Assembly: GCA_028713055.1 (NCBI GenBank)
Contig: JAQTOX010000005.1
Span: forward strand, 1 to 45,971
DNA: 45,971 nucleotides
Direction: 5' to 3'
DNA from: Methylococcales bacterium
GTDB lineage: Bacteria > Pseudomonadota > Gammaproteobacteria > Methylococcales > Methylomonadaceae
Under the pieces are notes generated by a model. It was not told the DNA's origin and searched no databases. It saw only the letters and a list, made by a program, of their open reading frames with translations. Below, piece after piece: positions 18,542 through 45,222 of the stretch (positions are counted from its first letter, which is position 1; each line of letters starts with the position of its first letter). The position numbers were made by a program, and so were the translations under genes.

Positions 18542-19555
18542 TTACGCTTCTAAAACAGCTAAACGATCTGCCAACAAAGTTTCTAAAACCACAAGAGCTT
18601 TTGCAAAACCGTCAATACCTTCGGCTAATTTATCTTTAGCCATACGGTTTTCTTCGTGCATACGATCAAATGTGGTCTTATCAACAGTGATTTTTTCAAT
18701 TGCAGAAGTTGCTGCATTTTCAGAGGTTAATTTGCGAACTAACTGTCCTTCCGTTGAATGCGAATTATCAAGTAATGCAACCTCATCAAGTTCTGTAAGT
18801 AATGAAGGTGAAATAGTCAATAAATCACAGCCCGCTAATTCAATGATTTCGCCAATATTACGGAAACTGGCTCCCATCACTTCGGTTTTATAACCGAATT
18901 TTTTGTAATAGTTATAAATATCCGTTACAGACAATACACCGGGATCTTCCGTGGGGGCGTAATCTTCAATTCCAGTATCTTTTTTGTACCAATCCAAGAT
19001 ACGACCAACGAAAGGCGAAATTAAAGTAATGCCGTTTTCAGCACACGCAATCGCTTGGTGTAAACCAAACAATAAAGTCAAGTTGCAATGAATACCTTCT
19101 TTTTCTAAAACCGCTGCCGCTTGGATACCTTCCCATGTTGCTGCAATTTTAATCAATACGCGCTCACGTGAAATTCCCGCTTCTTCGTACTGTGCAATTA
19201 ACTCACGACCTTTAGCAATTGACGCATCCGTATCAAATGACAAACGAGCATCTACTTCGGTAGATACGCGACCAGGGATGATTTGTAAAATTTTCAAACC
19301 AAATGAAACAGCCAACCGATCAAACGCTAACGTCACAACTTGTGCTGCACCCGCGTCCGCCCCCAATGTTTCACGAGCACCTTTCAGCGTATCATCAACG
19401 ATACTTTGGTATTGCGGCATTTGAGCGGCTGCCGTAATCAATGAAGGATTGGTAGTTGCATCGCGTGGGGTAAACTGTTCAATTGCTTGAATATCACCCG
19501 TGTCGGCCACAACAACGGTAAAGTTTTTCAATTGTTCGAGTAAAGATTGACTCAT
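18542..19555 (-). CDS. tal: Transaldolase
   Basis: [91 protein letters not shown]. Confidence 0.96.
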
Positions 19556-19585: not shown

Positions 19586-20197
19586 TTAGTGTTGTGCTTT
19601 CAAATACTTTTCAACGCCGGTCAACGCAATATCGTTGACAATCTCCTCCATAGCTGAGGCAACTTCTACCTTAGGTTGTGTTGCGCTTACTACAGCTTTT
19701 TTTGCCAAATATTTGCTGACATTGCTGATCTTGGTTTCTGGGAGGTTTTGCAAATAGCTTTCAACACGAGTAGGCTTCGCTTTAGGTGGTGCATTACGTT
19801 CTGCAATTGCTTTTTGCAACATGTATTTTGTAACGCCACTTGTTGGAGTTTGATCCTGATTAGCTAAATACTTCGCTACGCCAGTCCTGACAATCGGTGC
19901 GCTCTCTTTGTTATTATTCAAATATTTCGCAACACCACTCAGAATTACAACAGGCTTGCTTTTTTCCGCAATCGCTTGTCTAGCTAAATACTTTGCCACA
20001 CCGCTCGGGCGATTTTGTTCTTGTTCTTTTAGATATTTCGCTACACCACTTAACGTAGTTGACGGTTTTTCGTCCAAATAACGACTTACACCCGTGCGAA
20101 CATCAGACGAATCCGGCGCAGAAACAATCGCATTTCGTGTTGTTGTACTGTAAGCATCTTCTGATCGCGCACCAAAAAGACTTGAGAAAAAGCCCAT
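19586..20197 (-). CDS. Uncharacterised soluble protein with nine [ST]GVxKYL-type motifs
   Basis: 203 aa; motifs TGVSRYL, SGVAKYL (x3), TGVAKYL, SGVTKYM, TRVESYL, SNVSKYL, TGVEKYL. No family recognised. Confidence 0.85.
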   Translation of the reverse strand: MGFFSSLFGARSEDAYSTTTRNAIVSAPDSSDVRTGVSRYLDEKPSTTLSGVAKYLKEQEQNRPSGVAKYLARQAIAEKSKPVVILSGVAKYLNNNKESAPIVRTGVAKYLANQDQTPTSGVTKYMLQKAIAERNAPPKAKPTRVESYLQNLPETKISNVSKYLAKKAVVSATQPKVEVASAMEEIVNDIALTGVEKYLKAQH

Positions 20198-20199
20198 AA

Positions 20200-20859
20200 C
20201 TACCCCCGATTCGCGTCATTTTGAGCAGCTGCAGCTTTTTGAGCAAGGTTTTGTTTAGCAATATAACGTGCAACGTTAGTTGGTTTACCAACACGATCCA
20301 AATATTTAGTCACGCCAGAAACTTTAGGAATTCGTGCATTTAAGTAACGGGTTACACCAGTTTCTTGTGGTGCAGAAGACGTTTCGTTTGAAACAGAACT
20401 TCCACCAAAAATTCCAGCAAATTTAGGACATCTTGAGGCAGCAAAACCTGCTACAACTAAAGCACCTAAAAGTAATAAATTAGTCTTATCGCCTTCTTTT
20501 TCAGCTTTGGAAATAGCCGCTTCTTCCATGATAACTGCACCGGCACTGGTTGTATATTCAGAAACGGGTGCCGATTTGCTTGGTTTGTAAGTGTCATCTT
20601 TGAACAAAATTTTTGGTTCAAAGTTCGATGCTGGATATTTTGAATCGTCAGCAGCAGAAACAACTGGAGCCGGAGTAGATACCTCGGCTGTCGCCACTTT
20701 TGTGGCTGGAGTAGAAGCTGGTGTTGATTTTACAGATTCATCTTGATAAAGAACTTTTGGTTCAAAATCTGCGGCTGGATATTGACCTGCATGAGCCGCG
20801 AGCGGACTCGCTACAAGCAATGCAACGATAGCACCTTGGAGTAAATTATTTTTTTTCAC
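20200..20859 (-). CDS. Uncharacterised membrane-anchored protein: signal peptide, two YPAxxFEPK repeats, one TM, C-terminal tail with three GVxKYL-type motifs
   Basis: MKKNNLLQGAIVALLVASPLAAHAG signal peptide; QYPAADFEPKVLYQDES and KYPASNFEPKILFKDDT; TM TNLLLLGALVVAGFAAS; tail TGVTRYL, SGVTKYL, TNVARYI. Confidence 0.85.
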   Translation of the reverse strand: MKKNNLLQGAIVALLVASPLAAHAGQYPAADFEPKVLYQDESVKSTPASTPATKVATAEVSTPAPVVSAADDSKYPASNFEPKILFKDDTYKPSKSAPVSEYTTSAGAVIMEEAAISKAEKEGDKTNLLLLGALVVAGFAASRCPKFAGIFGGSSVSNETSSAPQETGVTRYLNARIPKVSGVTKYLDRVGKPTNVARYIAKQNLAQKAAAAQNDANRG

Positions 20860-20940: not shown

Positions 20941-22926
20941 TTAAAGCACGGCTTTAACGTGCTTGACGACGTTCTCGGTTGTGAAACCGAAATGTTCGAA
21001 CAATGCGTTGCCCGGTGCAGATTCGCCGAATGTATCGATACCGACTACGCCGCCCTCTAAACCAACATACTTGCGCCAAAAATCAGTGATACCGGCTTCG
21101 ATAGCAACACGTTTCACGTTCGGTAACAAAATGCTGTTTTTGTAGGCTTGATCTTGACGATCGAAAACGTTGGTTGAAGGCATTGAAACCACGCGAGCAT
21201 GAATTCCTTCCGCCGCTAAAGCTACTTGTGCTTTCATCGCTAATGTCACTTCTGAACCTGTCGCAATTAAAATAACCGCTATATCGCCAGCCGCTTCAGA
21301 GACAACATAAGCTCCTTTACGCATCGCCGCGATCTGCACATCATCATGTGCAATCGCGGGAATACCCTGACGACTTAACACCAAACTGCTCGGACCAGTT
21401 TTGCGTTCAATTGCACAAACCCACGAAACCGCAGTTTCGGTTGAATCCGCAGGTCGCCATACGTCCATATTTGGGATATAACGCAACGCTGACGTATTTT
21501 CGATAGGTTGATGCGTTGGACCATCTTCGCCCTGACCTATTGAATCGTGTGTTAATACCGCGATGGTCTGCACTTTCATCAGTGCTGCCATTCGTAAGGC
21601 GCTTTTAGCATAATCAGAGAACATGTGGAACGTACCGCCGAATGGCAACAAACCACCATGCAATGTCATGCCGTTCATGATAGCGTACATACCAAATTCG
21701 CGTACACCATAAGAAATGTAGTTACCTGGCTCTTTACCGCTGACGTGTTTGAAACTTGCACAACTGGTTAGGTTTGAACCTGTCAAATCCGCAGAACCAC
21801 CTAAGAACTCAGGCAAAATTTCAGCTAATCCCGCAATCGCTTTTTGCGATGCTTGACGAGACGCTAAATTTTCACCTTTTTCGTTGGTTGCTTTAATGAA
21901 TGCTTCAGTAACTTCTTGCCAGTTCGCAGGCAAATCGCCTGCCATACGGCGTGTGAACTCTGCGGCTAATTCTGGGAACTCTGTAGCATAGGCTGCAAAT
22001 TTTGCATCCCAAGTGGATTCAATTGCGGCACCTTTTGCTTTTGCATCCCAACCCGCATAAACGTTTGCTGGAATTACAAAGGCTTCATAATCCCAACCTA
22101 AAGCCGCTTTAGTCAAATTGATTTCGGGTTGACCTAAAGCGGCACCATGACATTCATGCGTACCGCCTTTATTTGGTGAACCAAAACCAATTGTTGTTTT
22201 GCAGCAAATTAGGGTAGGCATGTCAATTATGCCTTTAGCCAACCCAATTGCTTTAGATATTTCTTCGGGATTATGTCCATCTACAGATAAGACATGCCAA
22301 CCGTAGGCTTCAAAACGTTTTACAGTATCATCCGTGTACCAGCCTTCAATATGACCATCAATAGAAATACCGTTATCATCCCAAAAAGCAACTAATTTTC
22401 CTAAACCCCAAGTACCGGCTAAGGCACATGCTTCGTGTGATACACCTTCCATCAAACAGCCATCACCTAAGAAAACATAGGTGTGATGGTCAACAATTGT
22501 GTGATCAGGACGATTGAATTCATGTGCCAACAATTTTTCTGCCATTGCAAAACCAACACCGTTGGTAATTCCTTGACCTAATGGTCCAGTGGTAGTTTCA
22601 ACACCAGGTGTGTAACCGTATTCAGGATGACCAGGGCATTTAGAGTGCAATTGACGGAACGATTGCAATTCTTCCATCGGTAAATCGTAGCCTGTCAAAT
22701 GCAACAATGAATAAATTAGCATTGAGCCATGACCATTCGATAATACGAAACGATCACGATCTGCCCAATTCGGATTAGTTGGGTTATGTTTTAAATAATC
22801 GTTCCACAACACTTCGGCGATGTCCGCCATACCCATCGGCGCACCCGGATGTCCTGAATTTGCTTTTTGAACGGCATCCATGCTCAACGCACGTATGGCG
22901 TTAGCCAATTCTCTACGCGATGTCAT
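20941..22926 (-). CDS. tkt: Transketolase
   Basis: [71 protein letters not shown]. Confidence 0.97.
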
Positions 22927-23046: not shown

Positions 23047-23580
23047 TTATTCTAAATTAGCGTGTCTTGAACGCATGATTTCTTCTGGAATGCCTTTCTC
23101 ATGAATAATGTGAGAAATTGTGGATTCCAAAAAGAGCAATGTTGACAATTCAAATACCGTTCCCATAGGCATTCCAACGACTTTGCCGTACAACTCAGAT
23201 TTTCCGATTTGAAACAAACCGTCTGCCATATCGCCGATTGTTGATTTCGATTGTGCAGAAATCAGCATGATTTTCGCGCCAATTCTCTTTGCACTTTTAG
23301 TAAAAGCAACTAACTGTTCAGTTTCGCCTGAACCTGAAATGACAATTAACAAATCACCCGCTTGAATACTAGGAGTAACGATTTCACCTACAACATTGAC
23401 GTTATAACCACCATGCACCAACCGCATCGCAAAGAAATTGCCAACCAGTTTTGAACGACCCGCACCCGCAATAAAAATGCGTGAAGCCGCGTCGAGCATA
23501 GCGGTTAATTTTTCATCATATGATTCTTCTGTTGCCTCAAGAATACCGGTGATTTTATCTAAGATAAGTTGTTGGTGCAT
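23047..23580 (-). CDS. hxlB: 6-phospho-3-hexuloisomerase
   Basis: SIS-domain protein: RIFIAGAGRSKLVGNFFAMRLVHGGYNVNVVGEIVTPSIQAGDLLIVISGSGET; adjacent to HPS. Confidence 0.94.
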   Translation of the reverse strand: MHQQLILDKITGILEATEESYDEKLTAMLDAASRIFIAGAGRSKLVGNFFAMRLVHGGYNVNVVGEIVTPSIQAGDLLIVISGSGETEQLVAFTKSAKRIGAKIMLISAQSKSTIGDMADGLFQIGKSELYGKVVGMPMGTVFELSTLLFLESTISHIIHEKGIPEEIMRSRHANLE

Positions 23581-23594
23581 AAGAGTTCCTTTAA

Positions 23595-24236
23595 TTAAAC
23601 AGCGTCAACTAATTCACGGATTTCACGAGCTGCTTCAGCAGGTGAAGCAGCACCATAAATTGCCGCGCCAACAACGATAATGCTCGCGCCTGCACGAACT
23701 ACGTCTTGAACAGTTTTAGCGTTGATACCGCCAGCAACTGAAATGCGTGCGCCTAAACCCAAACCAGCAATTTCATTCAAATCAGCAAAAGGTGTGTGAC
23801 CAGCTGCTTGAGCGTCTAAACCTGTGTGAATACCTAAAATTTGTGCGCCTGCTGCAACTGATGCACGAGCGCAAGCCGCTTTGTCGTCAACATTGATTAA
23901 GTCGATTTGAACTTCAGCGGCGTTAGCATTAGCCGCTTTGATTACGCCTTTGATTGTTGCTAAACCAGAAACCCCTAAAACAGTCACAATGTCTGCACCA
24001 GCGGCGTAGAAAGGAGTTGCTTCATATTCGCCAGCGTCCATCGTTTTCAAATCAACTAACAACAATTTGTCAGGGAATTCTGCACGTAACGCTTTTACTA
24101 AATTGATGCCATTGTGTTTGATGCAAGGTGTGCCGATTTCGAAAATATCAACGAATGGGGCAACTTGTTTCGCCAATGAAATAGTTGCATCGAAATCTAA
24201 TGAATCTAATGCCATTTGAATCAATGGTTTTGCCAT
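23595..24236 (-). CDS. hxlA: 3-hexulose-6-phosphate synthase
   Basis: MAKPLIQMALDSLDFDATISLAKQVAPFVDIFEIGTPCIKHNGINLVKALRAEFPDKLLLVDLKTMDAGEYEATPFYAAGADIVTVLG. Start chosen at MAKPL (24236) rather than MYIMAKPL (24245). Confidence 0.96.
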   Translation of the reverse strand: MAKPLIQMALDSLDFDATISLAKQVAPFVDIFEIGTPCIKHNGINLVKALRAEFPDKLLLVDLKTMDAGEYEATPFYAAGADIVTVLGVSGLATIKGVIKAANANAAEVQIDLINVDDKAACARASVAAGAQILGIHTGLDAQAAGHTPFADLNEIAGLGLGARISVAGGINAKTVQDVVRAGASIIVVGAAIYGAASPAEAAREIRELVDAV

Positions 24237-24301
24237 GATGTACACTCCAAAAAAGTTATAGTTATAGTTAAAATTGTTACGCTAATTTATGCGGAGCTAA
24301 C

Positions 24302-28366: not shown

Positions 28367-30076
28367 ATGCTGGAATTTATTTCTTTGTTACGCCAACGTT
28401 ATTACGTTGTTTTGAATTCCAACGCACAGGAAGTACGATATTATCAATCTGTGTTTGAACAATTGACCCTTGCCGAAGCATTTTTTCGTAAAGGTAGATT
28501 TCGTGAAACATTGCCGCTACAAATCGCCATTATTGGTCCAACGCAAGCAGGTAAAAGTTCGCTTACAAATGTATTCTTGCAATCACAAAACGCCGGCGTT
28601 AGTCCGTTAGCGGGTTATACGATACATCCGCACGGTTTTTGTCATTCATTAGCCTTTTTTGATTGTAAAAAATTAGCGGACTATTTCGCACCATTTGAAC
28701 AAATATCGTCCGACAACTTGAGTAAAAGTCGTTTTGATTGTTACTCACTCACTCATATTGAAAAGCCATCGTTGCTTTTACCGCCAGCTATTCTTTGGGA
28801 TACGCCCGATTTTGATTCGATTGATTCGACGCATTATCGAGAAGGTGTTTTAAAAACAATTGCGTTAGCTGACATTATTATTTTGGCGGTGAGCAAAGAA
28901 AAATATGCCGACCAAACGGTGTGGGATACGCTAAAACTCATTGAACCGTTGCGCCAACCCACGCTAATTTGTATCAACAAATTAAGCGAAGGTTCAGAAG
29001 CGATTATTTTGGAATCGCTGAAAGAAAAATGGCGTGATTATCGACGTGATAATTTCCCCGAAGTGATGCCGTTGCTTTATCAACACGCAACAAAATCGCC
29101 AGAAATTCCCGAGTCAAAACAGCAAATTTTGTTTGCATTGGCGAAAAAAGTGCAACGTGAAAAACATCATCGTCGAGAGCAAAAATTACTACAAACGCAT
29201 TGGGCAGAATGGACAAAACCGTTACGCGCTGAACATATTGTTATCAAAGCATGGCAAACGTTGGTGGATGATGCGATTGAGCAAGCGTTAAATGATTACG
29301 AACGTACTTATTTAAACCATCCGCGCCACTACGAAACTTTTCAACAAGCGATTGCGGCATTATTGTTGTTACTTGAAATTCCAAGTGTGGCAAAAGTGAT
29401 GATGACGGCACGAAAAGTTTTGCTTTATCCGTTCAAGAAATTACGGCGTTTGTTTGGCTATAATCGAAAACATTTAGCTACAACAAGCCATGAAATGACG
29501 GTTTTAACACTGTTGTTAAACCATATTCTGACTGAACTGGCACATGAATTAGTCAATAAAAATGAGGCGTTGTGGCGAGAGTTGAGCGAACAATTACGTC
29601 AAAATCGTACCGCCGTTTTAAACGAATTCAATCACGCTGCCGAAGATTATCATCAAAATTTTCAGCAAGATGTTGAACTTGCCGCACAAGGACTTTATTC
29701 AAAATTAGAAGAACAGCCACTTGTTTTAAACACATTGCGTGCTACTCGTGTCACGGCTGATGCGGCTGTTGTTGCTTTAACGTTGTACACGGGGGGAATT
29801 GGTTTACATGATTTAGCGATTGCACCGGCGATGTTGATGTTAACGAATTTACTAACTGAAAGCGCGATTGGCAGTTATATGAAAAAAGTTGAAACTGATT
29901 TGAAAACGCAACAATTCACTGCCGTGAAAAAACAAATTTTTGCGCCACTTGCACAGCATTTACACACGTTGCCACAACACATAAAAACTGAAACATATTT
30001 TGCGATTTCACCCGAACAACTTGCCACCGTTGAAACCAAATTTAATGAAACACCACATGGCTTACGATTACTCTGA
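28367..30076 (+). CDS. Membrane-associated GTPase (dynamin/YfjP-like)
   Basis: P-loop GPTQAGKSSL, G3-like DTPDFDSI, G4-like CINKLSE, C-terminal hydrophobic segment. Confidence 0.82.
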   Translation: MLEFISLLRQRYYVVLNSNAQEVRYYQSVFEQLTLAEAFFRKGRFRETLPLQIAIIGPTQAGKSSLTNVFLQSQNAGVSPLAGYTIHPHGFCHSLAFFDCKKLADYFAPFEQISSDNLSKSRFDCYSLTHIEKPSLLLPPAILWDTPDFDSIDSTHYREGVLKTIALADIIILAVSKEKYADQTVWDTLKLIEPLRQPTLICINKLSEGSEAIILESLKEKWRDYRRDNFPEVMPLLYQHATKSPEIPESKQQILFALAKKVQREKHHRREQKLLQTHWAEWTKPLRAEHIVIKAWQTLVDDAIEQALNDYERTYLNHPRHYETFQQAIAALLLLLEIPSVAKVMMTARKVLLYPFKKLRRLFGYNRKHLATTSHEMTVLTLLLNHILTELAHELVNKNEALWRELSEQLRQNRTAVLNEFNHAAEDYHQNFQQDVELAAQGLYSKLEEQPLVLNTLRATRVTADAAVVALTLYTGGIGLHDLAIAPAMLMLTNLLTESAIGSYMKKVETDLKTQQFTAVKKQIFAPLAQHLHTLPQHIKTETYFAISPEQLATVETKFNETPHGLRLL

Positions 30077-31619
30077 AATTTCACAGCGCGTCGATTCATG
30101 GGCGCAACAGGCTTATGAATTGGGTTGGCTAAATCAAAAGTACATCCCCCCTGCCCCCCTTCAAAGGGGGGATATGCTTGAAACTCGTCCGTTAATCGTT
30201 GCTTTTATGGGCGGGACGGGGGTCGGCAAAAGTTCATTATTGAATCGGCTCGCAGGAAAACCGATTGCAAAAGCAGGTGTGGCACGTCCAACGTCAAAAG
30301 AAGTCACGTTGTTTCACCATCGTGACATCACATTGCCAACGTTGCCATTGACTGATATTCACGTTGCCAATCATGACGATGCGACGCAAAAAAACGTGGT
30401 TTGGATTGATATGCCTGACTTTGATAGCACCGACGCGCATAACAAAGAATTAGTATTGCGTTGGTTGCCATATATCGACGTGTTAATTTATGTGGTGAGT
30501 CCTGAGCGTTATCGTGACGAAAAAGCGTGGCGTTTGTTGCTTTCTGAAGGTGCAACGCATGCGTGGTTGTTTGTGATGAATCAGTGGGATAGAGGACAAA
30601 TTGAACAAGCTGAAGATTTTGAAAAACAGTTACGGCTTGCTGGATTTAATGCGCCACTGATTTTTAAAACGTGTTGTGCAGAATCTATCGAAAACGATGC
30701 GTTTAGCGAATTAGCCAAAACATTAACCTCACTCGCAACTCAAAAAACTATTGAACAATTAGAGCAACATGGCAACCACGCGCGTGTTCAGGCATTACAA
30801 AATTGTGTGCAAAACTATGTTGTTCAACTTGGTAATGAAACAGCTTTAAAAAAATTACATTCGAATTGGCTTTTGAATTGGAAAACTACTGCAATGCAAT
30901 TACAACAAAGTTTTACATGGCTCGTTCAATCGTTAGCTGAAAATTTCGCACACCATGCGAGCGATTTATTAAATTCAACACCGCCCATTTTGCTATGGGA
31001 TGATTGGGCGCAAACATGTTTTGATGATGCTTTGAATACGTTGGTGATTGATGCGCAACGATTGAAATTACCTACCGCTCCGTTAGAAATACAACTTTTA
31101 ACATTGCGTGAAACAGCCCAAAAAAAATTCAATTCGCACGTTGAACTTCAAACGCGGCAAGCTTTGGCACAACGTGGAAATGTAGTGCAACGCGTGTTAT
31201 TAAAATTCGTAGCAGGTACTGAAATTATTTTACCTTTAGCGGCGATGAGTTGGGTGGGCTTTCAAGTTGTAAATGGCTATTACGAAAGCAATCAAACACA
31301 TGAACATTATTTGAATATTGATTTTGCGGTACACAGCACGTTGGTATGTGGATTGTCGTGGCTCGTACCCTTTTTTATCTTAAAAAAATGTCAGCCTTCA
31401 CTCGAAAAATGTGTATTGCGGGGTTTAAATAAGGGGATTTCACAAAGTTTAAGTAATTTGAATAGCGAGGTTTGCGAAGCGGTTGAGCGGTTTCAACGAC
31501 AACGTGCAACGCAATTACAAAAAGCAAATGCGTTGCTAGCGGTGTGTGAATCGATTACGAAAATGCCTGTGAAAATTGACGAAAATAGTACGTTAAACCG
31601 AATGTTAATGGGCAACTAA
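30057..31619 (+). CDS. Second membrane-associated GTPase (dynamin/YfjP-like), overlapping the first
   Basis: P-loop GGTGVGKSSLLNRL, G3-like DMPDFDST, G4-like MNQWDRG, TMs LPLAAMSWVGFQVV and STLVCGLSWLVPFFIL. Start taken at MAYDYSEI (30057). Confidence 0.82.
   Translation: MAYDYSEISQRVDSWAQQAYELGWLNQKYIPPAPLQRGDMLETRPLIVAFMGGTGVGKSSLLNRLAGKPIAKAGVARPTSKEVTLFHHRDITLPTLPLTDIHVANHDDATQKNVVWIDMPDFDSTDAHNKELVLRWLPYIDVLIYVVSPERYRDEKAWRLLLSEGATHAWLFVMNQWDRGQIEQAEDFEKQLRLAGFNAPLIFKTCCAESIENDAFSELAKTLTSLATQKTIEQLEQHGNHARVQALQNCVQNYVVQLGNETALKKLHSNWLLNWKTTAMQLQQSFTWLVQSLAENFAHHASDLLNSTPPILLWDDWAQTCFDDALNTLVIDAQRLKLPTAPLEIQLLTLRETAQKKFNSHVELQTRQALAQRGNVVQRVLLKFVAGTEIILPLAAMSWVGFQVVNGYYESNQTHEHYLNIDFAVHSTLVCGLSWLVPFFILKKCQPSLEKCVLRGLNKGISQSLSNLNSEVCEAVERFQRQRATQLQKANALLAVCESITKMPVKIDENSTLNRMLMGN
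30144..30173. repeat. G/C-run palindromic element inside the GTPase reading frame
   Basis: ATCCCCCCTGCCCCCCTTCAAAGGGGGGAT; encodes IPPAPLQRGD in frame. Confidence 0.7.
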
Positions 31620-31620
31620 A

Positions 31621-33231
31621 TTAGTCGATAATCTGACCATATTCAATTTTTATGACTCTGTCGGCGGATGGAAAATAACGATCATCATGACTAACTGCAA
31701 TGACCGTTTTACCTTTCGCTTTCAGATCTTTTAGCAATACTTCATAAAAATACTGTCTAAATTCTGGATCTTGATCCGCCGCCCATTCGTCAAAAATATA
31801 AATCTGTTTATCTTCCAACACTGATGCAATATAGGCTAAACGTTTTTTCTGTCCCGTAGATAAATCAGTATTCAAAAAATGTTCATTTTTAAAAGTCGTT
31901 TTTTTCTCTAACTTCATTGTTTTCAACAGCGCGTTTACACGGTTTTCGTCTATATCCTCAACGCCGTATAGTCGGTCAAACAAATAAAAGTCGGTAAAAA
32001 TCGTCGAGTACAATTCGCGACAATGAATGTAATCACTGGCAAGTAACGGCTTATTATTCAGATGGATATTGCCAGATGTTGGGTAATACAGCCCCGTTAA
32101 TATTTTCAATAAGGTTGATTTACCGCTACCGTTTCCACCGACGATAAACAAAATTTCGCCTTGATTCAGTTTCAAGTTCAGTGGACCAACACTAAATGAA
32201 ATGCCTTCATTTTGTGGCGGATAATTAAACGTAACGTGTTCGAGTTCGAGACTTTCAAAAACAGGTGCTTTCGATTTTACTTTAGATATTTCTTTGCTTG
32301 CTAAATCGATTTCGTGTTCTAGGTGATAAATGTTTTCCACTGCAACATTCGCTCGTGCAAATAATGGAAATGCACTGACAACCATACTGAGTGGCCCGAA
32401 TAAAAATAAAACTGCAATGGTAATACCCGCAATTTGTTCAACGTTCGTTGAACTCAAAATCGGCAGAATAAAAATAATGCTCGCGCATAAAACATAAAAT
32501 GACGTTTGTGCAAACATGAGTTCGATAATGAAATTCAAACCTGTCGCAACTTTCATGTCTTTAGCTTCTTTAGAAATCGTTTCAATATGCGTAAACAACG
32601 CATCATTTTTTTTACGATTTATTTTGATTTCTTTAAAACCCATCAAAATGCTTTTTATACCATTGAAAAATTCCGATTCTTTATTTGATACGTCATGTAA
32701 TTGTGTACTCACACGGTTTGAATTGTACAAATACATCAATACGGACGAACCTAACACGCCAGTTGTAATAATAAAGCCAGGGATAGACAACCACGCGACA
32801 TAAAGTAAGCAAATAAAAACTACAATTAGTTGCTGACAGGCGTTGATTAAAATAATCGCCGATTCTGAAATTAAACTACTGTCTTGTGTAATCCGAGAAT
32901 AAATATTGGCATGACCGGCAGTTTCAATGTAAGGCAATTCGACATGACGCAATTTGTCCGTGACCCGAATTCTGACACGATTGATTGCATCTTCAACCGT
33001 AAAGGTCGCTTGTTTTAACGCATATTGTTTGGTGTAAATCAGTAATACCAAATCAAGCAAAAACAGCAGAAAATTTTGTGCTTGAATCTCATCACCTTTA
33101 TTTACTGCTTCCGCCGATTTGTTAATCAGCATCAACAAATAACCGTTTGCCAAACCCGAAACCAAAGCCGTAAAAATCATTTGTTTCTTTGGTACTTTAC
33201 TTTCTACGTTAAAAAAATCTAATAGTTTCAT
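31621..33231 (-). CDS. Cyclic-peptide-type ABC exporter (fused permease-ATPase, PvdE/SyrD-like)
   Basis: N-terminal TM region; Walker A VGGNGSGKSTLLKIL; signature LSTGQKKRLAYI; Walker B IYIFDEWAADQDPEFR. Overlaps the NRPS by 4 nt. Confidence 0.9.
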   Translation of the reverse strand: MKLLDFFNVESKVPKKQMIFTALVSGLANGYLLMLINKSAEAVNKGDEIQAQNFLLFLLDLVLLIYTKQYALKQATFTVEDAINRVRIRVTDKLRHVELPYIETAGHANIYSRITQDSSLISESAIILINACQQLIVVFICLLYVAWLSIPGFIITTGVLGSSVLMYLYNSNRVSTQLHDVSNKESEFFNGIKSILMGFKEIKINRKKNDALFTHIETISKEAKDMKVATGLNFIIELMFAQTSFYVLCASIIFILPILSSTNVEQIAGITIAVLFLFGPLSMVVSAFPLFARANVAVENIYHLEHEIDLASKEISKVKSKAPVFESLELEHVTFNYPPQNEGISFSVGPLNLKLNQGEILFIVGGNGSGKSTLLKILTGLYYPTSGNIHLNNKPLLASDYIHCRELYSTIFTDFYLFDRLYGVEDIDENRVNALLKTMKLEKKTTFKNEHFLNTDLSTGQKKRLAYIASVLEDKQIYIFDEWAADQDPEFRQYFYEVLLKDLKAKGKTVIAVSHDDRYFPSADRVIKIEYGQIID

Positions 33232-36200
33232 AATTTTTCCAATATACCTTGTATGATTTTGGCATTATTCAGTACGTGTGGTTCGGCTAGAATTTGAAAA
33301 TGATTACCTTCACCTTGATGGATTGTCACGTTGCCAGTTGTTGAATTCGTCCAATCACGGCTAAATGCCTCGCTTGGCAAAGATAAACTGTCTTTTTCTT
33401 GTGCGTTTAAACAAAAAATATCTGTTGTTAAATCACTTTGATTTGGATGATGCAAAATAAAATCTAAATATGCTCGCATCGTTTTTTGAATCACGGTTTT
33501 ATCTAAAGTGGCGGGCAATTGCGATTCTTTCATCGCTAATTCGATGATGTCTTCTTTTTCTTGTGCATCCAAAACAGAATCGGCAGTCATTCTAATACTG
33601 TCAACTAATATCAATGCTTGAACCGTTTCACCTTGTGCCTGCAATGCCGCAGCGACATGATAAGCGTAATTTCCGCCAGCCGAATAGCCCAATAAGATGT
33701 AAGAACCTTGTGGTTGAATTTTTTTAACAGCCGCAAGTGCATAAGCAATAAAATCGACGTCCGAAACAATATCAAAGCTATAACAGGCAAAGGGTAAATG
33801 CTCGGCTAAAACCCGAAACACCGTACCAAAACCAGAAATTGGTGGAAAACAAAATACGATTTGAGCATTCGGGCGCGTATTAAGCGGAATCATTACAGAT
33901 TGTTGCCTGTCACTAACTAAAGAATCCGTTAATGCCGCAATGTTCGGATGCGTCCAAAAGTCATTTAGCATAATTTCTTTGCCATATAACTTACTCAATT
34001 GCGTCATCAATTGAATAGCGTTAATGCTGTTTCCACCCAAACTGAAAAAATCATCATCAATGCTAATAGAATCCTGTTTAAGCACTTGTTCCCAAAGCGT
34101 GACGACTTGTCTTTCAATGTCATTTCTTGGCGCACGATAAAATGTTTGTGGTGTAGATAACTCGCCTAACATTGAAACTAATGCTTTGCGGTCAACTTTG
34201 CCGTTACTATTCAATGGCAAATTTTCAATAATGACAAATCGACTTGGAATCTTAAACTCCGGCAACCATTGAGTTAAATGTTTACGTAATTCAACGGAAA
34301 GCGTTTCATTGGTGTAATTTTTTTCGTCGTTCAAAACAACAAACACACTTAAAACGGCATTTTCACCATTGCCGCTATTTACAACGGCAGCTTGTGAAAC
34401 TGCTGGATGTTTTATGGTTTGCCCTTCGATTTCGCCTAACTCAATGCGAAAGCCACGAATTTTCACTTGGTCGTCATTGCGACCTAAACATTCAATTTCG
34501 CCGTTTTCCAACCAACGACCCAAATCGCCAGTGGCATACATTCGTTGACCTTGCTTAAACGGATCGGTGGTAAAGGCTTTATGTGTTCGTTCAACATCTT
34601 GCCAATAACCACGGCTTACGCCCGCACCTGCAATGACAATTTCACCAATAATTCCCACCGGCTGTAATTGACATTCAGGCGATAAAATATAAATGCCCTC
34701 CCCTGCTAATGCTGTGCCGATGGTTAACTGACCATTATCCAATTGTTTACATGTTGACCAAATCGTCGCTTCGGTTGGACCATAAACGTTAATGGTTTGT
34801 GTCGCCGTTAATTCTTTAAGTTGCGTTGCCAAACTTTCAGATAAGGCTTCACCACCTACTAAAATAATTCGCAACGAAGAAAGTTCAGAAATTTGTCCCG
34901 CATTGATTAACCATTGCAAACGTGATGGCGTGGCTTGTAACAATGTAATTTTAAGCGTTTTAATCAACTCAATGACGGCAACTGGATTTTGACATTGTGA
35001 ATCCGTTGCAATCACAACCTGTATTCCAACGGTTAAAGCACCGAGTAATTCTAAAATTGAAATATCAAAACTCGCTGTGGTCAACGCAAGCAGTTTATCG
35101 GATTCGCTAAAACCAAAACGTGCCTCTAAATTCGTACAAAATGCCGCAAGATTACCGTGTTCAACCATCACGCCTTTAGGTTGTCCTGTCGAACCTGAGG
35201 TATAAATTAAATACGCTAATTGATTGGGTAAAATGTGAACGTTAGGATTCGACTCAATGTCACAACAATTAACCGCCTCTTGAATATTTATAGCCGTTAC
35301 GGAATATGTGGCGGTTAAACCATTCGTGACAACTAACACGGCTTGACTATGTTCCAAAATATAATCAACTCGCGCTTTGGGATAAGCCGTATCTAAAGGT
35401 AAATACGCAGCACCTGTTTTTAAAATCCCCAATAACGCGACGACTAAATCGACATTTCGAGGCAATAAAATAGCAACTTTGTCTTCTGCTTTTAAGGCGA
35501 AATTAGTGATTAAATAATGCGCGAAACGGTTGGCACGACGGTTTAATTCCTCATAACTTAGCTGTTGTGTTTCGTCAGTCAACGCGATTTTTTTCTGTTT
35601 ACAAACTTGTTGCTCGAACAAATCTAGCAATAACGGACAGCTTTCAATCTCAGAAACTTTGCTGAAAATATCTAAAATTTGTGTGCGCTGTGATTCTGGC
35701 AAAATCGAGAGTTCAGAGATTTTGACATTCGGTTGCCGCGCCATTTGTTCAAGTAAATAACAAAATTGTTCAGCAACCCGCTTAATTTTCACATCACTAT
35801 AAATGGCTTGATTGTAAGTTAAGGTTAATTCGATTTCAGAATCGGGTGTGATAGATAACATGAAGGGATAATGCGGATGTTCAAACATATCGGTTTGCTT
35901 AATGGCAAAACCATTCGTTTGAAATTCTGTATCTTCAGCCGCTTGTGGGACGTTTTCAAAAACTAATACATGATTCAACAAATTTTGTTTCAGCGCACTG
36001 ACACTTTGAATATCTGACAGCGAATAATAATGGTGTGCCTCTGTGATTAAGGCTTGTTGCTGAACAGTTTGCCAAAATTCAACTAGACTTTGCGAATGGT
36101 CAATACGAATTCGCAATGGCACCGTGTTAATGAATAATCCAACGGTATTTTCAACATTCACGACTTCGGCAGGTCGTCCCGAAACCGTCATACCAAAAAC

Positions 36201-37016
36201 AACGTCATCACAATTATTATGCGTACCTAAAACCAACGCCCATGCGGCTTGAATGGCGGTATTTAAAGTCACTTTCGCGTTTCTAACGGCTGTTTTCAGA
36301 TTATCAGAGTCAGCTTGAGATAAACACAGTTTTTGCCGTCCATACGAATAATCATCTGTGTGCGGTTGTTGTGCATATAAACTGACGGCAACCGTGTAAT
36401 TTTGCAGATAATTTTCCCAAAAAGTACGCGCCGCCTCGTTATTTTGCGTTCCTAACCACTGGATATAACGGCTGAATGGTGGTGCGGGTGGTAAACGAAG
36501 CGGTTGATTGTGCAATAAACTTTGATAGCAACTCATCAACTCGTTGTAAATAATACCAAAACACCACGCATCCAAAATAATGTGATGCACACTCCAAATC
36601 ATTTCGTGATGATTCGGTTGCATTTTGAATACTGCCACCCGTGATAAACGATCTTTGGTCAAATTAAAACCTTTCGCCCTATCTTGTACTTGAAAATCGG
36701 CGATTCGTTCGGCTTGTTGAGTTGAATCTAACGCACTTAAATCAACAAATACAAAATCAACATCGCGATATTTCAATACCATCTGTAACAATGTCGCCGA
36801 TTTGTTATGAACAAAAACCGTGCGTAATACATCGTGTCGATTGTGTAGCAATTGCCAACTTTGTTTTAGAATTTTCACATCCAAAACACCGTCAATTTCA
36901 TAGCGCATTTGTTCAAAATACGCTCGACTCTTTGACTGATGCAAGGCATGAAACAACATCCCTTGTTGCATCGGCGACAAGGGATAAATATCTTGTAAAT
37001 TTGCTTTATTTAACAT
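33228..37016 (-). CDS. NRPS, module C-A-T-TE (terminal module)
   Basis: C domain (YPLSPMQQGMLFH, MIWSVHHIILDAWCFG), A domain (LAYLIYTSGSTGQPKGVMVEH, YATGDLGRW), T domain (FFSLGGNSINAIQLM), TE (LLGYSAGGNYAYH). Confidence 0.95.
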   Translation of the reverse strand: MLNKANLQDIYPLSPMQQGMLFHALHQSKSRAYFEQMRYEIDGVLDVKILKQSWQLLHNRHDVLRTVFVHNKSATLLQMVLKYRDVDFVFVDLSALDSTQQAERIADFQVQDRAKGFNLTKDRLSRVAVFKMQPNHHEMIWSVHHIILDAWCFGIIYNELMSCYQSLLHNQPLRLPPAPPFSRYIQWLGTQNNEAARTFWENYLQNYTVAVSLYAQQPHTDDYSYGRQKLCLSQADSDNLKTAVRNAKVTLNTAIQAAWALVLGTHNNCDDVVFGMTVSGRPAEVVNVENTVGLFINTVPLRIRIDHSQSLVEFWQTVQQQALITEAHHYYSLSDIQSVSALKQNLLNHVLVFENVPQAAEDTEFQTNGFAIKQTDMFEHPHYPFMLSITPDSEIELTLTYNQAIYSDVKIKRVAEQFCYLLEQMARQPNVKISELSILPESQRTQILDIFSKVSEIESCPLLLDLFEQQVCKQKKIALTDETQQLSYEELNRRANRFAHYLITNFALKAEDKVAILLPRNVDLVVALLGILKTGAAYLPLDTAYPKARVDYILEHSQAVLVVTNGLTATYSVTAINIQEAVNCCDIESNPNVHILPNQLAYLIYTSGSTGQPKGVMVEHGNLAAFCTNLEARFGFSESDKLLALTTASFDISILELLGALTVGIQVVIATDSQCQNPVAVIELIKTLKITLLQATPSRLQWLINAGQISELSSLRIILVGGEALSESLATQLKELTATQTINVYGPTEATIWSTCKQLDNGQLTIGTALAGEGIYILSPECQLQPVGIIGEIVIAGAGVSRGYWQDVERTHKAFTTDPFKQGQRMYATGDLGRWLENGEIECLGRNDDQVKIRGFRIELGEIEGQTIKHPAVSQAAVVNSGNGENAVLSVFVVLNDEKNYTNETLSVELRKHLTQWLPEFKIPSRFVIIENLPLNSNGKVDRKALVSMLGELSTPQTFYRAPRNDIERQVVTLWEQVLKQDSISIDDDFFSLGGNSINAIQLMTQLSKLYGKEIMLNDFWTHPNIAALTDSLVSDRQQSVMIPLNTRPNAQIVFCFPPISGFGTVFRVLAEHLPFACYSFDIVSDVDFIAYALAAVKKIQPQGSYILLGYSAGGNYAYHVAAALQAQGETVQALILVDSIRMTADSVLDAQEKEDIIELAMKESQLPATLDKTVIQKTMRAYLDFILHHPNQSDLTTDIFCLNAQEKDSLSLPSEAFSRDWTNSTTGNVTIHQGEGNHFQILAEPHVLNNAKIIQGILEKL

Positions 37017-40000
37017 TATTCTGCGAAAAGTGAATCAAGTTCATCGAGGCTAATATCTTGATACGTTAAATCGGACGGCGTGATTTCACTGCTATCTTGT
37101 TCCATACAAAATGCACATATATGGGACAGATTTTGCGAATATAACTCACCAAATTGACGAATGTTGTCTGCTGAAAAACGCTGTTTGTTGTAGCTAATAT
37201 GAACACAAAGGCTTTTTTTATCGACCAAACTTAAAATATCCAATTCGTGCGCCAACGGCATTTGCGAACTTACCGCTTGCCCTAAACCTTGCCAATCAAT
37301 ACTGAATAATTCATTTTTATCTTCAGCATCCATTTGACCTAAATAATTAAAGCCAATTTCGGGCGTAAGTGCCAATTCCGAATGTTTACCTAAATAACGT
37401 AATACACCATAACCTAAACCTTTGTTTGGAATTTTACGCAACGATTCTTTCGTTTCTTTGACTAAAGTAGCCAAGTCTTGCCCAGAATCGTAATGCAATA
37501 ATTTCGGATAAGCCGTTGTGAACCAACCGACAGTGCGTTGTGTATTCAAATCCGCCAATTCATCGCGCCCGTGACCTTCCATTTCAATCAACGTTTGTGA
37601 ATCACCACGCCACTGATAAACGCTCATCGCTAATGCCGCCAACAAAACATCATCAATTCGGGTGTTAAACGCGCGGTGAATATCCGTCAGCAACAAATGC
37701 GTGTCGGCTTCATTTAAATTCAACGAAAATTCACCAATATCGGCAACTGTTGCACCACTCGCCTGCGGTTTTGGATTGACGCTCGCTGTTACAGTTTGCC
37801 AATACGATAATTGCTGATTCAAATCGCTACTTTCTGCATATTTCAATAATTGTTCAGCATGATTTTTAAATGAATCCGTTTTTGCGGGTAACGCAATCGG
37901 TTGTCCATTTAAAATTTGCTGATAAGCCGTACTGAAATCTTCCAACAGAATGCGCCACGAAACCCCGTCAATCACTAAATGATGGCAGAACAACAGCACA
38001 TAATCGCATTCGGGTAAATGGTATAAAACCGCATTGAATAACGAACCCGATTTTAAATCGATAGCCGCTTGCGCTAAATCTGCATGTTGTTGCATCGCTT
38101 GTGATGGTTCAACGTGTTGACGTAAATCGACTTCTTGTAAACCTGGAAATTTGTAGGGTTCGCTAATTTTTTGCAGATAACCCTTTTCAATTTCAAACTG
38201 TGTTCGCAACGCATCATGATGAAAATGCAACGCTTCAAACACCGTTTGCAAATTGCTTTTTTCAACGCGCTGATTAAATTTCAACACAACTGCTTGGTTG
38301 AAATGATGCGGCGCGGAATTATTTTGAGTAAAAAACCATTGTTGAATCGGTGTTAAAGGCACATCACCCGTAACAGGATGTTGATCAATCGTTTTAACAA
38401 GTTCGCGGACTTGTGTGGCTAATTCGTAAATCGTTGGATATTGAAAAATATCACGCACATCAAGTTTTAAATTACGGTCACGCAATCGCGCCACAATTTG
38501 AATCGCTCGAATCGAATCGCCACCGCGATGAAAATAATGGTCATGAATGCCAATCGGTGATTGATCTAAAACGTCTTGCCAAATTTCAACCAACTGTTTT
38601 TCGATGTCCGTAGTTGGCGCGGCAAAATGTTCATTTTGTTCAACAACAAACGGCGCGGGTAACGCTTTTAAATTTATTTTTCCTGCAACGCTTAAAGGTA
38701 AACTTTCTAATTCCATGAAGTGTGTCGGAATCATATAAGCGGGCAACGATTCTGCTAAAAAGTCGCGCAATTCTTCAACGGCAAGCGCAGAACGAACAGG
38801 AATTTTTGCCTCTTCATTAAACAAACGTTGATAGAACTCACTGGCTCGAAATTGTGGCTGATCGTGATACGCCGAATACGAAATCGGAAGTGTTGAATCA
38901 TCCATTTTCGTCAACGTGCCGTTGATAAAATAATCGGGATTCAAACCATTGGCACACAATTTACGTTGCAATGTCGCCTTAAACACGTCGCCTTTCGATA
39001 CCTTAATTCCAGCAATCGAAACAGGTAAATAAACAGGAATCCAACTGTCTTGGCTATGCAAAATATCAATCACTTCATCAGCGTCAGGATAAAGCGTAAG
39101 CCAAACCAAAAAGCCTGTGAAAATACTGTCTTGCTCAAAATTCAAAACAATTTCGTGCTGCGTTTCTAACGGAATTTCATGTGTATAATCCAAATCTTCA
39201 AACACATCGGCATTCGTTAAAATCGCGCTTTCTGCAAAGTTTTTAACACACAAACGTAAATCGAACGGATAACCCACTTCCGTAAAAATCCGTTCCACAT
39301 AATGTGCGGCAATCGCTGAAAAATTAAATTCAAAATCGTTCTCAGATAATGAAAATGCGGCAATTTTAGTCAAACTGCGCGTGGGCAACATATTTTGTGG
39401 ATTGTGTAAAAACCGCCGTGCCGAATTGATGATTTTTGCCGCACCTTCCGAACCACCGATGCCGCCAACGATTTCAGAAATACAATAATCCACTTTTTCA
39501 GGCAATTCAGCCGTCATCGCGTTGCCGTGCATCAAATGAATTTTGTCTTCCAAACCTAAACGTTTTAACGTCTGTTTCGCTTTAAGATACGTTTCTTCGA
39601 GTAATTCAATGGCGTAAATTTTTTCTGCACCGGCTTCTAAACATAAGCGACTTAAAATAACTTCAGGGCCTGGACCAATTTCGACAACGATTTTACCTTT
39701 TAAAACTTTGCCAAACGCCGCGCGATAACGATCGTTACGCGCATAATCGGTTGCCATACTGCCATAAACCACATCGTCATAAACGTAGAATTCTGCAATC
39801 GAAGGGAATAATTCGACTTTTTTGGCGCGTGTGTAATAAGCACACAAAGCATTTTGACCATTCGCATCGCGCTGTGTGGTGACGAAAGCTTGATTGATAG
39901 CGGTGAATTGACGCAATGCAAAATCGACTTCAGCCGTTTCAATTCGATAGCCTGAAACTTTAACTTGTTGATCTTTTCGACCTAAGTATTCAATTTGTCC

Positions 40001-43000
40001 AACTTCATTCCAACACCCCAAATCCCCCGTTTTATATAACACTGACGTTGAGAATTGTGGCATCGAAACAAAACTGGCGGCGGTTAATTCTGGTGCGTTG
40101 ACATAACCTTCTGCTACACCAATTCCTGCAATATAAATTTCCCCCGCTACGCCAATCGGTACTTGATTTAGCGCATCATCGAGTAAGTAAAATTCTAAAT
40201 TTGAAATTGCCGAACCAACAGGAATACGTTGTGAATAATCACCTTCTGGATTCACACGATAAAACGAGGCACAAACCGACGTTTCTGTAGGACCATACGC
40301 ATTGAAATAGTTACATTGTTTCGCGTAATACAGCGCGTCATCAATGTTTGCGGCTTCACCAGCGGTAATCAATGTTTTAAGTGTGGGTAATGGCTGACGT
40401 TGTAGAGCTTGCAAATAAACAGGCGGTAACGTGATATGTGTTACGCCATAACGCGCTAAATAATTCACAAATTCAGTGGTGTCGTTAATGGTCGCTTGTT
40501 CAATTGTGACTAATCTCGCTCCACTCAACAATGCCATAAACACTTCCGATAATGACGCATCAAAAGCCATCGAGGCAAATTGCAAAACAGTATCTTCAGC
40601 CGTTACCGAAAAACCATTAACTTGCGCTAACGCCATATTCACAAAGCCAGCGTGTTTAACTTTTACGCCTTTTGGATGCCCCGTTGAACCAGATGTGTAC
40701 AAAATGTAAGCTACGTCATCAGGCGAAATTTCACGTTTAGGATTAACAGCATCATGCTCAACTTTATTCGCCCATGCTAAATTTGAATAAGCTGTTGATA
40801 ACGTTTCGGGCAACGCAATTTCAGCACGATGCAAAATCAATTTGCAGTCACTGTCTTGCAACATAAATTGAATACGTTGCAACGGTAAATCGCTATAAAT
40901 TGGCAAATACACCGCACCAATTTTTAAACACGCCAACATCAATACAACATCAACACGCTCGCTATAAACGGCAATCACAGCGCGTTCAAGATTTAATAGC
41001 TGTAATTTTTCAGCAAGAGAATTCGCTTGATGATTTAACTGCTCATACGTTAGCGAAACATCTGGTGACATCAATGCCACATGATTCGGTGTCAGTAAAA
41101 CTTGCTGTTCAAACGCATCAGCAATCGTTTGTTTTGTAATTTCAATTGGCTGCGGATTGAATGAAGTTAATTGTTCAATCTCGCTAAAACTCAGCATCGG
41201 CAACGTCGAAATCGCTTCATTCGGCTGTTGCAAAATGCTATCAAACAACTGCAAAACGTGGTTGCCCATACGTTGCATTCGCGTTTTTGAATACAAATCG
41301 GGATTAAAATTTAAATCCAACGCCAAACCATCGGCATCCTCGCCAAAGTGAAAGAGCAAATCGTAACGGCTAATGTCCCAGTGATTTTCTTTTACAAAAG
41401 GTTCGATGCTCAAACCCTCGACGGCAGGCGTTCCCATTTCATTATTTTGCAACGCCAACATCACGTCAAAAATCGGTGAACGACTCATGTCTCGTTGCAA
41501 TGTTAAATCGTCTACTAAAACATCAAATGGGTAAAGTTGATGATCGAAAGCATTTGTAGCAGTAATTTTTATTTGTTCTAAAAGGGCTTCAAACGATTTT
41601 GACGGTTCAATAAAATCACGCAACGCTAACGTATTAACGTAAAAACCTTGTTGATTTTCTAACTCCGCATGACCACGACCTGCAACTGGCGTTCCTAAAA
41701 TCAAATCTTGTTGCCCTGAATAACGATGCAATAAAATTTTTACCACCGCACACAACCCCATAAAAAGGCTGACGTGATTTTTATTTAACAGCGATTTGAA
41801 TTGTTGCAGTGCGAAATCAGGCAATTTGAAATGCAATGTTTCGCCGTTAAACGTTTGCACCGCAGGACGTGGATAATCCGTAGGCAATTCTAAAATAGGC
41901 AGTTCACCGGCTAATTTATCCAGCCAGTAATCACGATGTTTAAGCGATTTATCAGACTGAAGATACGCATTTTGCCACGCGGCATAATCTTTATACTGAA
42001 TAGTCAACGGGGAGAGCGAAGGCACGTGACCACTCATCAAATCACGATAAGCTCTTAACCATTCACGAGTCAAAACACCCAAAGACCAGCCGTCGCTAAT
42101 GATGTGATGAATGTTAAACAGTAAAACATGACGTTGAGGTGCGAGTTTCAACACGCTAGCTCTGAAAAGTGGCGCGTGCTGTAGATTAAATGGCAACCTC
42201 AAATCGTTATCAACGCAGACTAAGGCTTGCGCGTCAGCATCGGCAACGCCACTTAAATCAATTAGTGGTAATTTAACGGTGAAATCGTCGATAACTTGGC
42301 GCGGTTCACCATCACATTCAATAAAACGAGTTCGCAACGATTCATGACGATTCACAATCGCTTGCAACGAATTTCGCAACACATCGATATTGAGTTCGCC
42401 GTTAAATAGCAAGGCTTCTGGCAAATTATAAGCCACCGAATCGATGTGCATTCTGTCCATTAACCACAATCGTTTTTGCGAATGTGAAACAGCATAATCA
42501 GCAGCAATTTGCACTGGCAAAATTTCTTGTTGCGCGTCAACGTTGGTTTTGGAAATTAAATTGGCTAAATGACGAATCGTTGGTTGTTCGAAAAAATCTT
42601 TTAAACTGATATCTACGTTAAACGTTTTATAAATCCCCGCAATCATCCGCATTGCTTTTAACGAATCGCCGCCCATATCAATAAATGCGTGCGTTACGCC
42701 GATTTTATTTAGCCCAAGCAACTTTTGCCATTGTTCAACGAGTTGAATTTCGATTTCATTTTCAGGAGCTTGATAGTCTTCGCTATAAAGCAATTCATCA
42801 GGTTTTGGCAAAGCTTTTCTATCCACTTTGCCGTGCAAATTGAGCGGCATTTCTGTCAATGAAACAAAAAATGTTGGCAACATCGTAGACGGCAACCATT
42901 GGCGTAAATGGTCGCGTAATGCGTCATTACTTAGCGGTTCACGCGCCACAAAATAACACACCAAAACACCGTCTTGTGCGATAACAACGGCTTGTTCAAT

Positions 43001-44281: not shown

Positions 44282-44323
44282 TTTTATGTCCTTTTGTTTG
44301 TTGAGATTACACATCACTACGTT

Positions 44324-45196
44324 TTACTGATTACCTAAAATAACGGGCATTCCATCTTTTCCAGAGCCAATGACCACAACTTTCGCATTTTCAGATTTTG
44401 CCAAATCGAGTGTTGCATGTACGCCTTGCCATTTAATCAGCTTGTCCGTCAATGTTTTAGAAATAATCGCTTGGTAATTTTCAATCCCTGCTGCTTCAAT
44501 TGCCTTTCTTTCGGATTCCTTTTTTTCCACTTCTAACATAAAGTCATACGTTGCTAACTTTTGTTGTTCAACCAACTTTTTTTCAATCGCTGATTTAATG
44601 ACATCCGGCAATTCAATCGACCTGATAATAATGTCTTCAACCACAATATAATTTCGAGAGGTTTCTTCAACGGCTAACCACATGATTTTATTCAAAACCC
44701 CTTCTCTGTTAGTGTAGACATCTTCAGCTTCAAGCGTACCGATGTTTTTTCTCAAAACAGATTCAATTTGCGGCATGATGATACGGTCAACGTAATCGGG
44801 TCCTACTTTTTGATGTAAAACGCCAAGCATTTCATAATCTGGATGGAAACGAATCGATAATTTTAGCGTAATGGGTAGACCAAGGTTGGTCAGTACAATC
44901 AACTCGTGATTAACCGCTTGTGTTCTGACTTGGTAAATGTACATTTTGTTCCACGGCAAAATAAAATGCACCTGCTCTGGATAAATGTAATCTGTGTCAG
45001 TACCTTGTGAGAAACGTCGGTATAAAACCCCAGCTTCGCCAGAATTAATTGTGATGACGATATTATCGAAAAAAAACACGAGCGTTAAGGTCAGTAAAAT
45101 ACCTACAGTGATTAGTGTTGGAGTGCTATTTTTTATCCAAAAACGAATTTTTTCCCAGATTCTATATTTACGTTGTTCTATTTTGGTATTTTTCAT
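44324..45196 (-). CDS. SPFH/Band-7 (prohibitin-like) membrane protein
   Basis: N-terminal TM STPTLITVGILLTLTLVFFF; INSGEAGVLYRRFSQG...; LPITLKLSIRFHPDYE; long charged helix VEQQKLATYDFMLEVEKKESERKAIEAAG. Confidence 0.88.
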   Translation of the reverse strand: MKNTKIEQRKYRIWEKIRFWIKNSTPTLITVGILLTLTLVFFFDNIVITINSGEAGVLYRRFSQGTDTDYIYPEQVHFILPWNKMYIYQVRTQAVNHELIVLTNLGLPITLKLSIRFHPDYEMLGVLHQKVGPDYVDRIIMPQIESVLRKNIGTLEAEDVYTNREGVLNKIMWLAVEETSRNYIVVEDIIIRSIELPDVIKSAIEKKLVEQQKLATYDFMLEVEKKESERKAIEAAGIENYQAIISKTLTDKLIKWQGVHATLDLAKSENAKVVVIGSGKDGMPVILGNQ

Positions 45197-45222
45197 GGTT
45201 CTAAATGCTCTCCGATTTAATT

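Follow-up and report, generated by a model that had tools for sequence, protein, structure and literature searches.

Two proteins that carry the same short repeated motif sit among the enzymes of the ribulose monophosphate (RuMP) cycle in a Methylococcales genome, and the question is what they do there. The DNA analyzed (the window, 45,971 nucleotides) carries on its minus strand a single run that reads hps-phi-tkt-M3-M9-tal, where M3 and M9 are the names used for the ORFs with three and nine motif copies (Table 1). The genes are closely packed, with gaps along the minus strand of 14 bp between hps and phi, 120 bp between phi and tkt, 81 bp between tkt and M3, 2 bp between M3 and M9, and 30 bp between M9 and tal. 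Pfam bears out the enzymes of this same-strand order, which had been named in a preliminary description of the DNA.

Other parts of the same window hold a large non-ribosomal peptide synthetase cluster (31621-45957, minus strand), with synthetases of 2433 aa and 1262 aa, a peptide-exporter-like ABC protein, and a partial polyketide synthase at the edge. Side by side at 28367-31619 on the plus strand lie two large GTPases (each about 540-570 aa), which may be a dynamin-like pair.

Table 1. Positions of genes and protein elements of the RuMP run, in window coordinates.
Feature	Position	Strand	Basis
hps, 3-hexulose-6-phosphate synthase, unfused	23595..24245	-	Pfam PF00215 OMPdecase/HUMPS, E 9.7e-39; TIGR03128 over cut-off
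phi, 6-phospho-3-hexuloisomerase	23047..23580	-	Pfam SIS domain; position beside hps
tkt, transketolase	20941..22926	-	Pfam Transketolase_N/Transket_pyr
M3, predicted membrane-anchored motif protein, 219 aa, GTG start	20200..20859	-	
M3 putative signal peptide, residues 1-24, AxA-type end (AHA)	20788..20859	-	hydropathy up to 1.75 over 19 residues; sequence reading
M3 periplasmic repeat 1 (YPAADFEPKVLYQDESVK)	20728..20781	-	alignment; lower non-synonymous/synonymous ratio than linkers
M3 periplasmic repeat 2 (YPASNFEPKILFKDDTYK)	20584..20637	-	as repeat 1
M3 putative TM helix, residues 126-143, positive residues on C-terminal side	20431..20484	-	hydropathy; AlphaFold2 helix 125-139
M3 motif TGVTRYL	20341..20361	-	
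M3 motif SGVTKYL	20299..20319	-	
M3 motif TNVARYI	20260..20280	-	
M9, soluble motif protein, 203 aa	19586..20197	-	
M9 motif TGVSRYL	20075..20095	-	
M9 motif SGVAKYL	20030..20050	-	
M9 motif SGVAKYL	19985..20005	-	
M9 motif SGVAKYL	19919..19939	-	
M9 motif TGVAKYL	19865..19885	-	
M9 motif SGVTKYM	19820..19840	-	
M9 motif TRVESYL, degenerate	19751..19771	-	
M9 motif SNVSKYL	19706..19726	-	
M9 motif TGVEKYL, C-terminal	19601..19621	-	
tal, transaldolase	18542..19555	-	Pfam TAL_FSA

The motif and its carriers

The motif follows the pattern [ST]-G-V-x-[KR]-Y-[LMI], a single copy of which is exemplified by TPTGVAKYLAKQAIA. All nine copies listed earlier for M9 are present exactly, as are the three at the C-terminus of its neighbor; residue shuffling gives mean matches of 0.012 for M9 and 0.007 for M3, with a maximum of 2 in 20,000 shuffles. 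At the DNA level, the degenerate pattern WSNGGNGTNNNNMRNTAYYTN has 8 matches in the whole 2.67 Mb genome, all of them within the M3 and M9 ORFs, and its reversed control has 3 in the same genome. With a looser motif pattern, the locus gains one match, and two unrelated singletons appear elsewhere in the genome. Across 103 proteins with 598 motif instances, where V and Y were fixed by the search itself, there is a strong preference for T/S, G, K/R, and L, and the modal spacing is 20 residues. Single copies serving as docking tails of enzymes were also considered. None occurs in the window's genome, and isolated matches in three others (G126, G645, and G168) lie in unrelated ORFs or wrong frames.

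The preliminary description had the motifs and the gene order right and missed the extent of conservation, the predicted membrane anchoring, and three features of M3: the signal peptide, the transmembrane (TM) helix, and the duplicated periplasmic repeat. The repeat has the form YPAxxFxPKV[LV][YF]xDxxYK and is conserved across the order in one to three copies; the two in M3 are the only exact matches in the window's genome. With a signal peptide before the repeats and a TM helix after them, we infer a topology in which the repeats are periplasmic and the C-terminal motifs cytoplasmic. The duplicated repeat (20584-20781, minus strand) may be where a partner in the periplasm binds.

M9 begins with a hydrophobic and, among homologues, nearly invariant N-terminus (MGFFSSLFG), and the remainder consists of low-complexity linker and motifs. 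AlphaFold2 models M9 with a mean pLDDT of 55 and a pTM of 0.16, and the predicted helices overlap eight of the nine motifs (all but the first), mostly starting directly after the T/S. Such low confidence and such helix starts fit a chain without a fold of its own, in which the T/S would act as a helix cap. M3 gives a similar picture (pLDDT 51). In other family members, the long soluble motif proteins of six loci (L056, L057, L066, L071, L072, and L077) share a second element, LEGEFI[PS]A, near the C-terminus and outside the repeats.

Selection on the motifs

Codon-aligned homologues from 15-16 strains were compared as differences per codon pair, which are raw counts and not normalised dN/dS. 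At the motif positions of M3, there are 0 non-synonymous and 0.419 synonymous differences, against 0.567 and 0.165 in the cytoplasmic linker beside them. M9 behaves likewise, with 0.094 non-synonymous and 0.395 synonymous differences at the motifs and 0.383 and 0.287 outside them. The periplasmic repeats of M3 (0.170 non-synonymous, 0.323 synonymous) also differ from the periplasmic linkers (0.493 and 0.219). Expressed as a ratio of the two counts, the motifs stand at 0.00 in M3 and 0.24 in M9, and the linkers and remaining segments at 1.0-3.5. Selection thus acts on the motifs and not on the linker, with a large contrast inside each protein.

Spread and linkage to RuMP genes

In the window's family (Methylomonadaceae-like; f1), motif proteins were matched in 139 of 151 genomes and in all 29 genera sampled, usually, in nearly every genus, in the order hps-phi-tkt-M3-M9-tal. 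The motif family also occurs in several other Methylococcales families, where an M3-type protein lies directly before or close to hps-phi. In three of these genomes (G168, G183, and G189), the M3-type protein belongs to a duplicated unit resembling the 5.3-kb repeat described around the transaldolase of M. capsulatus (PMC517821). Judged by gene order, the motif genes of M. capsulatus are probably MCA3042 and MCA3048. A further family (f10), probably Methylophilaceae, has matches in 49 of 57 genomes, a few of them to a ChpA-type kinase. Its usual order is hps-MOT-tal-hps-phi, with a soluble protein (MOT) of 60-206 aa between hps and tal; its motifs are of the TGVERYI type, and its N-terminus is hydrophobic, e.g., GFFSSICGLLKGIFSS.

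The preliminary description had staked its proposal on a neighborhood link to RuMP genes, and the link holds, the second family included. The loci read in detail were mostly picked for the motif and not for hps; of their 128 motif clusters, 118 have hps, phi, tkt, or tal as a same-strand neighbor. By group, the share is 65 of 68 within the window's family (the three unlinked clusters are located at contig ends), 17 of 24 for Methylococcales of other families, and 36 of 36 for f10. Extra hps cassettes bring their own long soluble protein with 8-16 motifs. One genome (G010) has three tandem hps-phi-tkt units, of which two include a 13-motif protein and the third M3 plus tal, and further cassettes read hps-tkt-MOT16 (G126) and hps-phi-MOT12 (G043). 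The motif protein is kept in extra hps cassettes without phi (L074, L082), without tkt (L064, L065, and f10), or without tal. Since it persists where any of these three is missing, hps is the best common denominator.

A less biased test started from a profile (HMM) of hps, with which 370 genomes sampled across the class were scanned. Seven had hps over the cut-off, and all seven carry motif proteins beside it, although in three (G153, G250, and G390) these were found in the locus or by pattern and not by the motif query. That query found nothing in the sampled genomes without hps, and its sole match outside Methylococcales sits between two hps genes. In the same scan, unfused hps was motif-linked in 13 of 13 cases and fused hps-phi in 0 of 2; two further fused copies (L238 and L240) have no motif neighbor either. 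At the level of the phylum, a scan of 398 genomes (E 1e-4) matched only the window's genome, but it was not fully sensitive, since it missed G153 with its motif clusters. No match was found by tblastn in either phage or plasmid collections.

The motif protein is not obligatory, since unfused hps stands without a nearby one in four loci (L215, L217, L218, and L239). In the first three of these, which have unfused hps-phi, Hps is clearly more divergent. When linked and unlinked Hps were compared, the unlinked lineages were divergent throughout, and this divergence singles out no binding surface, because Phi from the same loci is divergent too.

Known families and nearest systems

That the proteins belong to no recognized family, as first described, was upheld by searches of Pfam, NCBIfam, and PDB, which gave no significant match. 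The sub-threshold HMM matches DPC2, RHH_5, and Zein were put down to repeats or composition, as were U1snRNP70_N and ATP_synth_reg, where the score is summed over repeats and no single stretch is significant. The similarity of the repeat regions to diatom pyrenoid component 2 (PF25195 DPC2) is weak (E 0.005-0.1; 13.5-17.7 bits against a curated cut-off of 70 bits) and probably reflects composition and repeats, not homology. A search of open-licence papers for the motif strings found none.

The nearest systems in design are the Rubisco linkers of the EPYC1, PYCO1, CsoS2, and CcmM type, disordered chains in which a short motif, repeated tens of residues apart, crosslinks the enzyme. M3 and M9 share with them many short motifs on a chain predicted to be disordered and a tie to a C1-fixing enzyme, and crosslinking would be expected here as well. 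As in such scaffolds, copies of a motif under selection are strung along the chain, and the chain is genetically tied to an enzyme. There are also differences. Searches of Pfam, NCBIfam, and PDB gave no sequence homology with EPYC1, PYCO1, or CsoS2, the pathway is that of formaldehyde and not of CO2, some of the motif proteins have a TM anchor and periplasmic repeats of their own, and their binding to an enzyme is putative. Fused Hps-Phi enzymes also keep Hps and Phi physically together, but covalently; such copies occur in the same genomes (L168, L169, L238, and L240) without a nearby motif protein.

Motif copies away from RuMP genes

The proposal of a multivalent RuMP scaffold agrees with the linkage, the selection, and the structure prediction. 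It is qualified by further carriers of the motif that are encoded apart from RuMP genes, so the motif does not serve RuMP alone. Outside the window's family, seven Methylococcales clusters have no nearby RuMP gene. The recurrent kinds are M3-like orphans, TM-plus-motif proteins (L148, L150), and proteins with a C-terminal CQAxTxKGTQC...C..H element, possibly zinc-binding (L131:8424-9272, plus strand; L143:7776-8555, plus strand; L235:7145-8509, minus strand). No common neighbor of the orphan copies was recognized. In f10, ChpA-type kinases of 1,830-2,010 aa (L203:5426-11458, minus strand; L204-L209) carry the motif, in the form T[GS]VERYI, 3-7 times in the linkers between domains. Apart from these repeats, they are ChpA/PilL hybrid kinases with Hpt (three copies), HATPase_c, CheW, and receiver domains, encoded in a pil-chp cluster whose neighbors were read by eye as pilG, pilH, pilI, and pilJ (L206). 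Downstream in L206 lies a protein resembling methenyl-H4MPT cyclohydrolase.

It is mainly these kinases and the orphan clusters that speak against calling the motif specific to RuMP, and together with the zinc-finger-tailed type, they indicate that its receptor may be broader than RuMP. They would be accounted for if the motif bound a general localization hub, such as a polar or membrane organizer or a ParA/MinD-like positioning protein, and not a RuMP enzyme. The motif would then be one address code for RuMP-locus proteins, f10 kinases, and orphans, with the pathway positioned through other contacts. We regard this as unlikely, for motif proteins are found, and duplicated, together with hps genes, the window's genome has no other motif cluster, and no neighbor shared by the orphans was recognized.

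A probable docking scaffold at the membrane

On balance, M3 and M9 probably represent an undescribed family of multivalent, membrane-associated docking scaffolds for RuMP enzymes, with Hps as the likeliest partner. This reading builds on direct observations, namely the features of the sequences, the selection acting on the motifs, and a linkage that is conserved; selection and structure prediction both fit a multivalent scaffold of linear motifs. Docking to Hps, clustering, and a benefit for formaldehyde capture are what we infer from them. Each motif would form a short N-capped helix, with T/S-G as the cap, V..YL on one face, and K/R, and would dock by fitting into a groove on its partner enzyme, most likely Hps, the most constant neighbor when phi, tkt, or tal is missing. 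The neighborhood cannot separate Hps with certainty from Tkt, Tal, or other enzymes in this role. Hps, Phi, Tkt, and Tal all form dimers or larger assemblies, and 3-16 motifs, most often 20 residues apart on a disordered chain, could crosslink such oligomers into a cluster. The cluster would be kept at the cytoplasmic membrane by M3 and by M9-type proteins through their hydrophobic N-termini. This membrane is the entry point of formaldehyde made by periplasmic methanol dehydrogenase, and clustering there may raise the capture of this toxic, diffusible compound.

Membrane attachment recurs in several unrelated forms, namely M3, short TM types (L055, L148), and amphipathic N-termini in f10, which points to the membrane as the intended site of the cluster. 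The same TM and hydrophobic N-terminal elements, together with a helix face that V..YL could make sticky, might instead mean that the motifs bind each other or lipid, forming a structural meshwork or shaping intracytoplasmic membranes, with the RuMP genes as mere operon partners. We find this improbable, since the hydrophobic moment of the motif helix does not show strong amphipathicity, and f10 still keeps the protein beside hps, although its genomes appear to be those of non-methanotroph methylotrophs, which are not known to have internal membranes of the methanotroph type. Regulation of the operon or its enzymes without clustering, such as sequestering or inhibiting Hps at low formaldehyde, would suit the gene neighborhood and the general ability of disordered multivalent proteins to sequester enzymes, but it is very improbable, given that Pfam and NCBIfam revealed no regulatory domain, copy number tracks hps cassettes, and a simple inhibitor would not be expected to be anchored in the membrane.

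The docking scaffold could conceivably extend across the membrane. The YPAxxFxPKV repeats of M3 would bind a periplasmic source, methanol dehydrogenase or a neighbor of it, the cytoplasmic motifs and M9 would hold Hps, Phi, Tkt, and Tal, and the ChpA-type motility kinase of f10 would be tied in. Such a transmembrane formaldehyde-capture hub is doubtful, but if it existed, formaldehyde would be fixed at its point of entry.

Implications for RuMP bacteria

For bacteria that use the RuMP cycle, the intermediate to be fixed is toxic and diffuses freely; a search of open-licence papers found none on a RuMP scaffold or metabolon. Methylococcus Hps was reportedly isolated by Ferenci, Strom, and Quayle in 1974 as a large complex, perhaps particulate, and a membrane scaffold could account for this. 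A conserved motif code of this kind, linked to hps in two bacterial families, would explain the cohesion of the pathway, and possibly its placement at the membrane, and would supply a natural part for synthetic methylotrophy.
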